Shown: positions 8,755-47,495 of the stretch, in pieces
Layout of the letters: every line of letters starts with the position of its first letter
How positions within the stretch are numbered: position 1 is the first letter of the stretch
From: an uncultured Candidatus Actinomarina sp.
GTDB taxonomy: Bacteria; Actinomycetota; Acidimicrobiia; Actinomarinales; Actinomarinaceae
Direction: 5' to 3'
Length of the DNA stretch: 64,000 nucleotides
Assembly: GCA_902526825.1 (NCBI GenBank)
Contig: CABZMN010000001.1
Location: 71,819 to 135,818, forward strand
Notes under the pieces: model-generated
Databases searched by the model: none
Told to the model about the DNA's origin: nothing
What the model saw: only the letters and a program-made list of their open reading frames with translations
Made by a program: the position numbers and the translations under genes

Positions 8755-9756
8755 ATGAAAATCTCAATAGTTGGAGCTACTGGTCTTGTAGGGCGAAATA
8801 TAATTGAGCTCTGTGAAGAATTTTTTGACAATTCTGTTGAATACCATCTTTATGCATCCAAAGAGTCTGAAGGCAAAACACTGCAAGTTAATGGTAAAGA
8901 AGTTCTCATTAGAGAGTTAAGTTCAAAAAATATTGAGTCATGCGATATTGCTTTGTTTTCAGCTGGAGGAGAAAGATCAAGAGAATTTGCAAATCAATTT
9001 GTAGACAAAGGGGCTTTCGTAATCGATAATTCATCATCTTTCAGAATGGAAAAAACAGTTCCTCTTGTTGTTTACGGTATTAATGAAGACATAATAAAAA
9101 ACGATTCGAAAATTATAGCCAATCCAAACTGTACAACTATGGCCCTTGTTATGGCTTTAAAACCATTACATGATATTTTTAATTTATTAAGTATTGTTCC
9201 AGTTTCATATCAAGCTGTTTCAGGTTCTGGTAAGAGTGCAATTGAATCGTTAGAAAATGAACTTGCTAACCTTTCAACACCAGGATCAGCACCTGATGAA
9301 AAATATTATCAATCCCAGATAGCGAAGAATGTAATTCCAATTGCTGGAAATATTTCAGAAAATGGATACTCAGATGAAGAAATGAAGTTTTCTAATGAGT
9401 CAAAAAAGATTTTGGACATACCGGACTTAAATGTTGAACCATCTAATGCAAGGGTAGGGGTTGAAACTGGACATGGTATATTTTGTACTGCAACATTTGA
9501 AAAAGACGTTGATGTTGAATCGGCTATTGAATCATTGGAAGCATTTGAAGGTATAGAATACTGGAAAGAAACTTATCCGACACCTCTTGATGCTCAAGGA
9601 AATAAAAATATCTTAGTCTCAAGAATGAGATCCGGTCTTACAAGCAACAAAATACTAAACTTCTGGGCAGTCGGTGACAATCTCTTAAAAGGAGCAGCAT
9701 TGAATGCTGTTCAAATTGCTAACCACCTATACAAAAATGATTTCTATACCAAATAA
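8755..9756 (+). CDS. asd: aspartate-semialdehyde dehydrogenase
   Basis: ORF; GATGLVGRNI, NPNCTTMALVMALKPLH, YQAVSGSG; abuts lysC. Confidence 0.94.
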   Translation: MKISIVGATGLVGRNIIELCEEFFDNSVEYHLYASKESEGKTLQVNGKEVLIRELSSKNIESCDIALFSAGGERSREFANQFVDKGAFVIDNSSSFRMEKTVPLVVYGINEDIIKNDSKIIANPNCTTMALVMALKPLHDIFNLLSIVPVSYQAVSGSGKSAIESLENELANLSTPGSAPDEKYYQSQIAKNVIPIAGNISENGYSDEEMKFSNESKKILDIPDLNVEPSNARVGVETGHGIFCTATFEKDVDVESAIESLEAFEGIEYWKETYPTPLDAQGNKNILVSRMRSGLTSNKILNFWAVGDNLLKGAALNAVQIANHLYKNDFYTK

Positions 9757-10408
9757 AGTTCCTAGAAAGAAAAGAGTTTTTCTAGGACCTTTGAGTAGGA
9801 AAATACTTAAACTTTCAAACTGGGAAATTACAGGTGAATTTCCGAACTATAAAAAAATAATATTAATTGGAGTACCTCATACAGCAAATAGAGATGCCTG
9901 GTACGCACTTCTTGCAGTACTGGCTTTGGATTTAAAGATAAATTTTTTTGGTGCAAGATGGATATTTACCAGACTTCCAAGCCCTTATACTTTTTCAAAA
10001 GATGTTGATCGTTTAGGAATTCCCTGGCCTTTAGGGTGGTTACAAAAATTAATACTTTTAAAACTTGGAGGAATACCAGTTTATAGAAATAAATCAAAAG
10101 GATTAATAAAGGGTGCTGTAGAAGAATTTTCTAAAATGGAAGAATATGTTCTTGCAATTGCTCCAGAAGCTGGGACAGAGCAGGTTAAAAAATTTAGAAG
10201 TGGATTTTATTATTTAGCAAAAGAACTGAATATACCTTACTTACCAATCGAGTTAGATTTTAAAAATAGAAGGTTTCATGTACAAAAAGAACAGTTCGTA
10301 TCGATGTCATTTGAAGAAGAGTCTAAAAAAATTATTTCACTTTTTGAAGGGGTAGAAGGAGCTTTAAGAGAATTTAAAATGCTAGAAGAAACGGAAGAAA
10401 AAGACTAA
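9737..10408 (+). CDS. 1-acyl-sn-glycerol-3-phosphate acyltransferase-like protein
   Basis: ORF track starts at 9704 inside asd; ATG 9737 is preferred. GVPHTANRDAW and APEAGTEQVKKFRSGFYYLA. Confidence 0.72.
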   Translation: MISIPNKVPRKKRVFLGPLSRKILKLSNWEITGEFPNYKKIILIGVPHTANRDAWYALLAVLALDLKINFFGARWIFTRLPSPYTFSKDVDRLGIPWPLGWLQKLILLKLGGIPVYRNKSKGLIKGAVEEFSKMEEYVLAIAPEAGTEQVKKFRSGFYYLAKELNIPYLPIELDFKNRRFHVQKEQFVSMSFEEESKKIISLFEGVEGALREFKMLEETEEKD

Positions 10409-11057
10409 GCATATAATTTCCTACAGGAATTTTTTTTAATCCTAACAAGTTTATTCCAACACCTATTAACAATACCCCTCCAATTCCTGCAATCGAGTCA
10501 GATATTTGTTGTTCAATATTTGTGTTAATTAATAAAGCAAACAAAGTAAATATTCCTTGATAGATCAATATTGAGACACCCGAGTATACAGCTCCTTTAC
10601 CACCACTTGAAGTTATAAAAATTACCAGGATACAGTCTAAAGCAGTTTTTATTAATAACAATTCTAAGTTTGACTCGACAACATCAAAGAAAGGCCCAAT
10701 AATTGCTAGTGGTCCAGTAATTACAATTAATGTAGTTGTTAGATAGCTTTCTATAAATTTAGTTTGATCACTTTCACCTTTTTCAAATTTTAAATAGAGA
10801 TAATCTCCAAAATTTTTTACTTTATTTTCAATCTTTAAGTAGCTTCCAATAATTGAGCCAACTATTACAGCAAACAGGGTGAACATAAAATCTGGACTTT
10901 TTAAAGTTTCTCTGAACCCTAAAGCCAAAACTAAAAGACCGAGTGGTAGGAGATTTTCATCAAAGTTTTTGAGTTCTTTTTTAAAAATTATTCTGGCAAG
11001 AATACCAGAGACAATAACACCAAATCCATTAATAAGCGTTCCAATTCCTGGGATCAT
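10374..11057 (-). CDS. DUF554-type membrane protein
   Basis: [26 protein letters not shown], polytopic. Confidence 0.72.
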   Translation of the reverse strand: MIPGIGTLINGFGVIVSGILARIIFKKELKNFDENLLPLGLLVLALGFRETLKSPDFMFTLFAVIVGSIIGSYLKIENKVKNFGDYLYLKFEKGESDQTKFIESYLTTTLIVITGPLAIIGPFFDVVESNLELLLIKTALDCILVIFITSSGGKGAVYSGVSILIYQGIFTLFALLINTNIEQQISDSIAGIGGVLLIGVGINLLGLKKIPVGNYMLSLFLPFLLAF

Positions 11058-11620
11058 TAGTTGCTAAAATCGCTATGGCTTTTACTTGGTGTAGGCCCTT
11101 CTTGGCCTTGATACTTACTTCCATAGCTTACGTCACCATACTCAGCCTCTGAAGGTGAATTTAAATAATAGAAAGATATTTGTCCAATTTTCATCTCTGG
11201 ATATATTTTGATTGGTAAGTTTGCAACATTTGAAAGTTCTAATGTTAAATAACCTGAAAATCCAGGATCAACAAATCCTGCAGTTGAGTGAATTAATAAA
11301 CCTATCCTGCCTAGTGATGACTTACCTTCAAGTCTTGCAACAATCTTATTTGATAAAGCAACTTTTTCATAGGTTGTGCCCAAAACAAATTCTCCAGGAT
11401 GGAGCACAAATGGTTCATCCTTTGAAGCCTCCACCAGAGTAGTTAAATCTTCTTGAGGTGATTTCGGATCTATATGACTATATTTATGATTTTCAAAAAC
11501 TCTGAATTCTGTCCCAACCCTTAAATCAACACTAGAGGGTTGTATATATCCTTGATCTAAAGGTGATATCTCGATCCACTTATCTTCTAAGGCTCTTTTA
11601 ATATCTTTATCTGAAAGCAT
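11057..11620 (-). CDS. dcd: dCTP deaminase
   Basis: [50 protein letters not shown]. Confidence 0.93.
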
Positions 11621-16079: not shown

Positions 16080-16274
16080 TTATGCAGTTTCTTGAAGAAT
16101 TCTTCCTCTAACTCTTGGGTATTTAACAGGAGCATGGTTAAAGCAGTGCTCTCTTTTGTTATAGATACTTAATTGAGTATTGCAAGATTCTTCTTTACAA
16201 ACTCTGCCCTGGTCAAAACTCTTTGAAGGTCTTATACCACCTTTAATTTGACTTGCTTTTAATCCGTCAGTCAT
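16080..16274 (-). CDS. small putative zinc-binding protein, CX4CX12CX2H
   Basis: ORF 64 aa; VCKEESCNTQLSIYNKREHCFNHAP..YPRVRG; paralogous to 37645-37848. Confidence 0.75.
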   Translation of the reverse strand: MTDGLKASQIKGGIRPSKSFDQGRVCKEESCNTQLSIYNKREHCFNHAPVKYPRVRGRILQETA

Positions 16275-16305: not shown

Positions 16306-16378
16306 GCTTAACAAACATTTGAAAAACCTGCAAGTTTTTCCAAACTTTTTATCCAGCTACGTATAGTAACATTTGTTT

Positions 16379-16615
16379 ATGGAAATCAAACTAGAATTTT
16401 GTATTGTTTGAAACTATACACCCCGTGCAGTTAGTACGGTAGAAGACATACTTGAAAAATACGGAAAAGAAGTAAAATCCATTGATCTTATTCCAGGAAC
16501 AGGTGGTGTTTTTGAATTGTATTTAAATGGTGAACTTATTTATTCAAAACTTGAAACTGGAAGGCATACAAACGAAGGTGAAATATTAGAGTTAATGGAA
16601 AAAGCACTTAGTTGA
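16379..16615 (+). CDS. SelW/Rdx-family selenoprotein with Sec at TGA 16409-16411
   Basis: Not in ORF track. Reading through TGA gives MEIKLEFCIVUNYTPRAVSTVEDILEKYGKEVKSIDLIPGTGGVFELYLNGELIYSKLETGRHTNEGEILELMEKALS; CxxU-N-Y..RA and PGTGGVFEL are Rdx hallmarks. Confidence 0.9.
16423..16439 (+). promoter_or_regulatory. candidate bacterial SECIS hairpin (SelW-like gene)
   Basis: CCGUGC-AGUUA-GUACGG, 6-bp stem with one G-U, starts 11 nt after the TGA. Confidence 0.65.
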
Positions 16616-17346
16616 CATATCCATTTGATCTTTCCCTAGTTGAGCTTATATTTATTTCATTACTTCTATTTGTAAGTGCAGCGATTCAAGGAATATTAGG
16701 TTTTGGATTTGCTGTTATTTCTTCACCAATACTTGTCCAAATTGAGCCACTACTAGTGCCACAAATTCTAAGTTTACTTGCCTTGCCTATGGCTTTCCGT
16801 ATATATCAACGTGAAAAAAAAGAAGTAGATTGGAAACCGTTTAAATTCTTATTCCTAGGAAGAATTATTGGTGGCCCTTTGGGTTTATTGCTCCTTATTA
16901 ACTTGAACGAGAAACTACTTTCAATAAGCGTAGGAGCAATTGTACTTGTTGCAGGAATTGCAACATTATTTAACTGGACTGTGAATAGGAATAATAATTC
17001 GTCATGGATCGCTGGAACATTATCTGGAATATTTGCAATGATTGCAGGAGTAGGGGGCCCTCCTATTGCAATTTTGTACAGAGGAGCTTCGGGTAAGGAG
17101 TTCAGACCATCGTTAAACGCTGTTTTTACGTTTGGAATAATGATAACACTAGGTCTTCTGCTTTTTAGTGGTGAGATTTATAGAGATCATATAATTTTAT
17201 TTTTATATCTTGCAATTCCAGTTGCTGTGGGATTAAAAATATCTTCTTTACTGTTTTCAGATGTCTCTGACAATGCAATTTCAAAAGGCGTAACATACTT
17301 TTCAATAATCTCAGGATTGGTTGTTATATTCAGAAATATAATTTAG
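16612..17346 (+). CDS. TauE/SafE family transporter
   Basis: ORF; AAIQGILGFGFAVISSPIL, GGPLGLLLL, AGVGGPPIAI; TTG start overlaps the SelW-like stop. Confidence 0.85.
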   Translation: MTYPFDLSLVELIFISLLLFVSAAIQGILGFGFAVISSPILVQIEPLLVPQILSLLALPMAFRIYQREKKEVDWKPFKFLFLGRIIGGPLGLLLLINLNEKLLSISVGAIVLVAGIATLFNWTVNRNNNSSWIAGTLSGIFAMIAGVGGPPIAILYRGASGKEFRPSLNAVFTFGIMITLGLLLFSGEIYRDHIILFLYLAIPVAVGLKISSLLFSDVSDNAISKGVTYFSIISGLVVIFRNII

Positions 17347-31464: not shown

Positions 31465-32211
31465 ATGCAAAATTCGAGATATCAAAAAGTTGAAAAGTTT
31501 TATGAAGTTCCTGTTTTTATTGCAGTTGTTTTACTAATACCTGTAATAATCATTGAATATAGAAGTTCAGAACTAAAGGAATTTGCAAACTATCTCAATT
31601 GGGGTATTTGGGTTGTATTTTTATTGGAGTACGTCCACTTACTAATTCTTTCTGAAAACAAAAAAGACTATGTTATTAATCACAAATTGGAACTTTTTAT
31701 TGTAATTGGTTCAATACCATTTGTCCCCCAAGGATTAGAATCGTCGAGATTTCTACGTTTTGTAAGACTACCAAGACTCCTAAGAGTATTACAGTTATTT
31801 AGACTTGCAGTTGTAGTTGCAAAATTTGGAGCTGATATAAAAGCTATTTTTAATAGCAGGGGACTCAGGTCAATTGTTTATGCAACTATATTTTTAATAA
31901 TTTTCTTTGGATTCCTTTTCTTTGTTTCAGAACCTGAGGTTGAAACATTTAGTGATGGAATATGGTGGGCTTTGGTTACCATTACAACTGTTGGGTATGG
32001 AGATATAACGCCCTATACAACACTAGGAAGAATTGTTGCAAGTTCCCTAATGATTTTAGGCATTGGATTTATAGCAACAATAACAGCAACTGTTTCCGCT
32101 TATTTCCTATCAAATTTTGGAGAAAAACAAACTACTCTTGATGATGTTCTCGTTAAGCTAGAAAAAATTGAAAATGAAATAGAAAAAATAAAGGAAGAAA
32201 AAAATGATTGA
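31465..32211 (+). CDS. ion transport protein / K+ channel
   Basis: ORF; RFLRFVRLPRLLRVLQLFRL S4-like segment and TTVGYGDITPYT filter. Confidence 0.87.
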   Translation: MQNSRYQKVEKFYEVPVFIAVVLLIPVIIIEYRSSELKEFANYLNWGIWVVFLLEYVHLLILSENKKDYVINHKLELFIVIGSIPFVPQGLESSRFLRFVRLPRLLRVLQLFRLAVVVAKFGADIKAIFNSRGLRSIVYATIFLIIFFGFLFFVSEPEVETFSDGIWWALVTITTVGYGDITPYTTLGRIVASSLMILGIGFIATITATVSAYFLSNFGEKQTTLDDVLVKLEKIENEIEKIKEEKND

Positions 32212-45548: not shown

Positions 45549-46571
45549 TTGAGATTAACTGAATACTCTCATGGCGCTGGTTGAGCTTGTAAACTCTCAC
45601 CTGGTGAGCTTGCTCAAGTTTTGATGCAATTTAAAAATCATAAAGCTATTAAATCTCCGAATTTATTAGTTGGACTAAATAATCCTGATGATGGAGGAGT
45701 TATTCAAGTTGGTGATCAAAAAATAATTCAAACTGTTGATTTTTTTACTCCCATTCTTGATAATCCTTACGATTGGGGAAGAGTAGCAGCCGCAAATGCC
45801 CTATCAGACGTCTATGCAATGGGAGGAGAACCTATTTCAGCTTTACAGTTAGTTTGTTGGCCTCGTAGTGAAATAAGTTTTGATATATTGTCTGAGGTTA
45901 TTAAAGGTGGTCTTGATACAATGCAAAAAGCACATTGTACTGTCATTGGAGGTCACAGTATCGACGACAAAGAACCAAAATATGGTTTCTCAATCACTGG
46001 TGTTATAAAAGATAAGATATTTAAAAATAATGAAATTAAGGATGGAGATAGACTTTTTCTAACAAAACCAATAGGAACTGGGATTATTACAACTGCAATT
46101 AAAAGAGGAGTTGCTTCTGACGAAAGCATAAAAATTGTAACCGACATTATGACTGAACTAAATAAAAAATCATTAAATTTTTCACTGGATAATAATGCAA
46201 ATGCAATTACAGATATAACTGGTTTTGGATTGTTGGGGCATTTGTATGAAATGCTCAATGATTCCAATTTATCAGCAACAATTAAATTTGATTCTGTTCC
46301 TTTGATTGAAAATATTTATGATTATTTGGATAAAGAAATATTTCCTTCTGGAAGCTTGAGAAATTATGAATACCTATCAGACAAATTTATTTCTGATCTG
46401 GATGAGCAATCTTTGAAAATATTATGTGATGCACAAACCAACGGTGGTTTTCTCATTTCAATACCTAAGAATCAAAATATTAAACTTCAAAAAGATATGG
46501 AGATTAACAAAAATATTTGGGAAATAGGTGAAATTAATTCTAAATATAATGAAAAGATAAATATTATTTAG
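45549..46571 (+). CDS. selD: selenide, water dikinase, Sec at TGA 45582-45584
   Basis: ORF track starts at 45621; the frame extends upstream to TTG 45549 behind AAAGGAGG (45536-45543): MRLTEYSHGAGUACKLSPGELAQVLMQF..; SelD motifs TVDFFTPILDNPYDWGRVAAANALSDVYAMGG. Confidence 0.94.
45596..45608 (+). promoter_or_regulatory. candidate bacterial SECIS apical hairpin (selD)
   Basis: CTCAC-CTG-GTGAG, starts 11 nt after TGA; outer helix TTGAGC (45581-45586)/GCTCAA (45612-45617). Confidence 0.7.
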
Positions 46572-46574
46572 AAG

Positions 46575-47495
46575 ATGATAAAAACAATTGCTAAAGTTTT
46601 CGCTTTCACTTCCATATTCAAGAATTTGGTTTTGACTCAAAAAAGTAAAACAGAAGGAATAACCCAATTACATCCTATAAAGATTCCCGGAAGAACTGTC
46701 TTTGTGAGAGAGAAAGAATATTTTATTAGAGAAAACATTGTTGAGGGCACAATACCAATTGTTTTTCTGCATAGTTGGGGTACTGACTCACTTGGGAGTT
46801 GGTTTAATGTTCTTCCTAAAATTAAAAATGTTAGTTCATTTATAACTATTGATTTTAAAAATCATGGAAGATCGGATGCCAGTTGGGAAAGATGGAGTGT
46901 TGATGAGAATGCAGACATAGTAATAAGCATTCTAGATGAATTAAATGTATCAGAATGCCATGTAGTAGGTTGGTCCATGGGAAGTGCAGTTGCACTAACA
47001 ATATCCAAAAAAATTCCGGAAAGAATAAATAAAATGGTTTTGGTTACACCATTTAGCTGGATCGAGGGAGAGAGGTATAAAGACAACTTTCTTTTCAAAT
47101 TACTTGTTGGTGTAGTAAGAATTAGAGAAAGACTTTTTCCTAATAAAAATCCACAATCTAAATATTCTTTTCTCAAAAAATCTAGTGCTCTAAAAAATGA
47201 GTTTACCGATTGGGCGTGGAACAATCTTCATCGCTCTAAAGATGATTTCATCTATGGAGATGGTGGAAGACACGTAGTAGCTTTTGATTCAAGAGACTGG
47301 CTAGGTGATATTGAAACTGAAACCTTGGTGCTAATTGGTGGTAAAGACAGTCTTGTACCTCAAAAAGCATCGCAAGAAGTGACTACAAAAATGCAAAATA
47401 TAACATCCATAACATTTACTAATGCATTTCATGGAATACCATGGACACATGATGAAGAACTTGTTGAAGAGCTCACTAAATTTTTGAATTTATGA
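46575..47495 (+). CDS. alpha/beta hydrolase
   Basis: ORF; FLHSWGTDSLGSW, VVGWSMGSAVALTISKK. Confidence 0.83.
   Translation: MIKTIAKVFAFTSIFKNLVLTQKSKTEGITQLHPIKIPGRTVFVREKEYFIRENIVEGTIPIVFLHSWGTDSLGSWFNVLPKIKNVSSFITIDFKNHGRSDASWERWSVDENADIVISILDELNVSECHVVGWSMGSAVALTISKKIPERINKMVLVTPFSWIEGERYKDNFLFKLLVGVVRIRERLFPNKNPQSKYSFLKKSSALKNEFTDWAWNNLHRSKDDFIYGDGGRHVVAFDSRDWLGDIETETLVLIGGKDSLVPQKASQEVTTKMQNITSITFTNAFHGIPWTHDEELVEELTKFLNL

Follow-up and report, generated by a model that had tools for sequence, protein, structure and literature searches.

Gene content of the selW locus

The region analysed here (the window) is a 64-kb stretch of DNA with a G+C content of 33%, taken from a Candidatus Actinomarina genome (G000) assembled to 879 kb in 24 contigs and 74.6% complete. 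On its plus strand, selW runs in a single frame from the ATG at 16379 to a terminal TGA if an earlier TGA, at codon 11, is read as selenocysteine (Sec). The features discussed below are collected in Table 1. The predicted product has 78 residues (79 codons with the stop) and reads MEIKLEFCIVUNYTPRAVSTVEDILEKYGKEVKSIDLIPGTGGVFELYLNGELIYSKLETGRHTNEGEILELMEKALS*. Re-translation reproduced exactly the frame, both TGA codons and the residues quoted in a preliminary description of this DNA, which had also stated that a standard gene caller would skip the gene. Under the ordinary code the region is reduced to a 10-codon stub and, after the TGA at codon 11, a 32-codon ORF with a TTG start, and the latter is all that a conventional call returns. 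That description did not include the SECIS hairpin, the link between selW and tauE, or the recognition of selD as a second selenoprotein gene in the window. Just upstream of the ATG we noted a weak TATAGT box by eye, with a similar T/A-rich box in relatives, whose position may hint at a near-leaderless selW mRNA; a promoter scan returned no promoter at selW, this box included.

Table 1. Coordinates of selW, selD and associated features in the window
Feature	Position	Strand	Basis
Possible -10 box TATAGT, weak	16362..16367	+	Seen by eye; relatives have a comparable T/A-rich box
selW, Rdx/SelW-like selenoprotein (predicted), 78 residues, CxxU at residues 8-11	16379..16615	+	Frame, profiles, fold
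UGA predicted to be read as Sec, codon 11 of selW	16409..16411	+	TGA in 31/31 Actinomarina sequences compared
Predicted bacterial SECIS, stem CCGUGC/GUACGG, loop AGUUA	16423..16439	+	Folding, covariation, bSECIS rule
tauE/safE-family permease	16612..17346	+	PF01925 1.2e-24
UGA as ordinary stop of selW, overlapping TTG start of tauE (TTGA)	16613..16615	+	
selD, selenophosphate synthetase, itself a predicted selenoprotein; TTG start, Shine-Dalgarno AAGGAGG upstream	45549..46571	+	TIGR00476 4.4e-111
UGA predicted to be read as Sec in selD (HGAGU-ACKLSPGEL)	45582..45584	+	One TGA inside TIGR00476 match

SelW belongs to the Rdx family

The proposed assignment of the product to the Rdx (SelW/T/H) family was borne out by profile searches. 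Pfam Rdx (PF10262) matched residues 3-74 at 6.1e-19 (68.4 bits against a cut-off of 22.6), and the NCBIfam model TIGR02174 (CXXU_selWTH) matched over the whole domain at 1.1e-15 (57.6 bits, cut-off 34.2), both well past anything expected by chance, while NF041051, a Campylobacter-type SelTWH model, scored under its cut-off. A profile built from 19 relatives matched bacterial SelW-related structures as well as mouse selenoprotein W (2npb; 3.5e-6), which has the same CxxU motif and thioredoxin-like fold. The AlphaFold model of SelW (pLDDT 95.3) has its elements in thioredoxin-like order, with a strand at residues 2-8 followed by a helix at 14-31, and the C8-I-V-U11 motif lies after the first strand. 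Foldseek ranked SelW-related structures from Agrobacterium, Pseudomonas, Streptomyces, Bordetella and Vibrio highest (TM ~0.8-0.9; 0.88-0.91 for 2fa8), with thioredoxins lower. The bacterial Rdx structures 2fa8, 2p0g, 3dex, 2obk, 2ojl and 2oka share with SelW a common fold (TM 0.8-0.9) and a CxxC/U site, whereas 2fa8, 2ojl and 3dex have Cys in place of Sec; identity to the set in structural alignment is 19-28%. Judging from its family, SelW most likely serves in the cytosol as a small selenol/thiol oxidoreductase, acting via a Cys8-Sec11 selenenylsulfide.

The in-frame TGA is conserved in relatives

The nearest named loci belong to uncultured Candidatus Actinomarina or OCS155 genomes (63-99% identity). 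Two contigs filed under other names, L051 (Euryarchaeota archaeon ARS96) and L058 (Marinoscillum sp. MED1001), also carry Actinomarina sequence, with 97% and 82% SelW identity respectively and the same neighbours, and are probably mis-binned MAG contigs. Rdx was found in 59 of 119 relatives, 58 of which have one internal TGA; within the genus selW is present in 37 of 42 members, each with one internal TGA. In the five members without it, tauE is absent or matched weakly and distantly, and the assemblies are 66-83% complete. Given that a recognisable tauE is lacking there too, the selW locus is probably just missing from these assemblies, which therefore do not speak for loss or disruption.

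A second set, which partly overlaps the first so that the two counts are not independent, comprises 80 selW loci on genome contigs spanning Actinomarina, Planctomycetota, Poribacteria, Acidobacteria, Chloroflexota and Bacillus relatives. TGA occupies the CxxU position in 79 of them and Cys in one (L106); as residue 11 was left out of the search patterns, this dominance of TGA does not reflect search bias. Among close relatives from outside the genus, almost every one has TGA at the Sec codon and two have Cys. SelW of Acidimicrobiia, Planctomycetota, Poribacteria, Chloroflexota and Bacillus relatives has TGA at the equivalent codon at ~37-56% identity. The in-frame UGA is thus retained as UGA or Cys in homologues.

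These comparisons bear on whether the locus is a pseudogene or an error, that is, a Cys codon turned to TGA or an assembly fault. TGA is a single base away from the Cys codons TGT and TGC, and the source genome is incomplete and divided among 24 contigs, both of which would favour such an origin. On the other side, all 31 of the Actinomarina sequences that we compared, drawn from many single-cell and metagenome assemblies, have TGA as codon 11, and TGA is also found in distant phyla. Purifying selection moreover persists 3' of the TGA, where differences number 5859, 2673 and 11107 at codon positions 1, 2 and 3, a substitution pattern consistent with that of a translated frame. The preliminary description had pointed to sister genomes as a place where disrupted homologues might be met; within the genus the position is always TGA and a disrupted frame was never seen. 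Given this invariance we reject a pseudogene or error, which is exceedingly improbable.

A hairpin within the coding sequence

The hairpin downstream of codon 11 has a 6-bp stem and a 5-nt loop with G at loop position 2, begins its loop 17 nt after the UGA and folds at -8.2 kcal/mol. It conforms to the published bSECIS rule (a 3-9-nt loop with G at position 1-2 on an upper stem of 4-16 bp, 16-37 nt from the UGA, -7.5 kcal/mol or lower; PMC13188914), which is met by chance in 57 of 2000 dinucleotide shuffles (2.9%), 59 of 2000 synonymous recodings (3%) and 48 of the 2757 TGAs in the window (1.7%). An Rfam search yielded no SECIS, its only hits being at chance level.

Across 18 distinct Actinomarina sequences the hairpin is 100% paired. 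Its outer pair is UA in nine, CG in eight and GC in one, and a single G-U pair is replaced by G-C in five. The outer pair joins the wobble base of a Pro codon to the first base of a Val, Ile or Leu codon, and because a synonymous position takes part in this covariation, selection seems to act on the hairpin RNA. The covariation score was reached by none of 500 shuffles, which ignore kinship, and changes on both sides occur at one pair. Under a looser rule without the energy limit, 28 of 29 wider relatives have a suitably spaced hairpin whose first or second loop base is G. The hairpins of some relatives, at -6.6 kcal/mol, are weaker than the rule's -7.5. Two registers can be distinguished: in Actinomarina and a small number of further loci (L076, L086 and L089 among these 17-nt loci) the distance from the UGA to the loop is 17 nt, versus ~22 nt in most other loci from other phyla (L078-L124). 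Eukaryotic SECIS elements sit in the 3' UTR; unlike that of mammalian SelW, the predicted SECIS of selW lies within the coding sequence.

Selenocysteine machinery and other predicted selenoproteins

The source genome carries selA, selB, selC and selD, the first three of which the preliminary description had named as genes to look for. The tRNA-Sec gene (selC; C1:144231-144321) lies 8.4 kb past the window (RF01852, 75.2 bits; ARAGORN anticodon TCA). On contig C6, selA (L015:8433-9728; TIGR00474, 1.1e-110) adjoins selB (9725-11404) with a 4-base overlap; SelB contains a SelB-wing_3 domain and scores 214 bits, below the curated cut-off of 242. In the genus, selA is above cut-off in 34 of 42 members and RF01852 in 41 of 42, one of them (G002) only with a score like that of a tRNA-Ser match. 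selD was found in 40 of 42, all with one internal TGA, and two further selD pieces, from split genes and not reaching the N-terminus, have no TGA. One genus member, G039 (600 kb, four contigs), is without selA, selD, selW, tauE and a tRNA-Sec above cut-off, and either its assembly is incomplete or Sec use has truly been lost.

We scanned the whole window for in-frame TGAs that join a start to at least 30 further codons without collision with another gene, and searched the rest of the genome by family. Five candidates emerged in the window, of which only selW and selD (TGA at 45582) were judged real; in the other three, either a gene simply ended and its neighbour began, or an ORF had an incidental-looking upstream extension through a TGA. 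ORF lists start selD too late, at the TTG at 45621, 3' of the Sec codon, whose TGA is kept across the genus. When the selD hairpin was folded no clean canonical loop was seen, and we claim no bSECIS for this gene. Elsewhere in the genome, an AhpD/CMD-like protein on contig C7 (G000:C7:15402-15560; L159) has an in-frame TGA in its redox motif (ECEYU-IRAH) and is likely a third selenoprotein. The AhpC/TSA and thioredoxin families of this genome are ordinary, without TGA.

The selW frame would likewise be joined if UGA encoded an ordinary amino acid, through genome-wide reassignment or a suppressor tRNA. Yet TGA terminates selW itself and at least three other genes of the window, namely lnt, the hydrolase at 46575-47495 and the channel at 31465-32211, the same three from which the preliminary description had argued against reassignment. 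The only two convincing genes with in-frame TGA in the window both belong to known selenoprotein families, and a tRNA-Sec with a TCA anticodon is present. Together these data uphold that argument, and we give reassignment or suppression next to no credence.

Gene neighbourhood

The gene order selW-tauE-lnt is kept throughout the genus. The overlap between the selW stop and the tauE start is TTGA in every Actinomarina sequence listed, while the last SelW residue varies between Ser, Asp and Gly. The persistence of the overlap despite this variation suggests that the two genes are probably translationally coupled. A further, rather doubtful possibility is that expression of TauE, a putative sulfur-compound exporter, follows selenium status, with ribosomes that pass the selW Sec codon re-starting at the overlapping TTG.

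The overlap with tauE also invites a reading in which the UGA is a regulatory stop, ending a 10-residue leader peptide that controls tauE, with the downstream frame untranslated. That frame is nevertheless kept as an Rdx protein with a folded core across phyla, and outside Actinomarina tblastn gave no tauE match beside selW, so that we consider a leader peptide extremely unlikely.

The opposite strand near selW encodes a P-type ATPase for a heavy metal, probably copper, as well as a chaperone with an HMA domain. Also on the minus strand, positions 16080-16274 encode a 64-residue protein with a Cys/His motif (VCKEESCNTQ...HCFNHAP) that has 88-100% identity across the genus, is better conserved than its neighbours and has no Pfam family. 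In more distant Actinomarina (L057, L063-L077) about 2 kb separate its gene from selW; in one of them (L064:3066-4964) this interval encodes a protein of 632 residues that contains HEFGH, resembles an M3 peptidase by eye and is absent there in the window.

Discussion

The sequence, the hairpin, its covariation and the complete set of sel genes lead us to conclude that Candidatus Actinomarina almost certainly has, in selW, a true bacterial gene for selenoprotein W of the Rdx family, in which we infer that codon 11, a UGA, specifies Sec. In the mechanism that we propose, the SECIS hairpin, which directly follows the UGA within the coding sequence, would direct Sec insertion, with SelB delivering Sec-tRNA to codon 11, and the second UGA would terminate SelW where it overlaps the tauE start. 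The product would adopt a thioredoxin-like fold and act as a thiol/selenol redox protein through a Cys8-x-x-Sec11 active site.

The kind of protein is already known. According to two ocean-metagenome studies (PMC1088965, PMC2398784), and again to one from 2021 (PMC9402790), SelW-like proteins are the commonest selenoprotein family of ocean metagenomes. The prokaryotic SelW of the first two studies resembles the protein described here in its SelW-like family, its CxxU motif and a bacterial SECIS with G in a small apical loop; in the available parts of those studies the metagenome sequences were not tied to Actinomarina, whereas here the host genus, the genome context and the sel genes are given. 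Our literature search found no paper joining Actinomarina and selenoproteins, and the available part of a 2020 genome paper on the order (PMC7771536) makes no mention of selenium. What is modestly new is the genus-wide use of Sec, with at least three selenoproteins, the third of them likely, in a streamlined actinobacterium.

The most abundant marine selenoprotein family can now be tied to a named, streamlined open-ocean genus. Ordinary ORF calls in Actinomarina genomes overlook short Sec genes and mis-start selD. To make a few selenoproteins, a genome of ~1 Mb retains the whole set of selA, selB, selC and selD.
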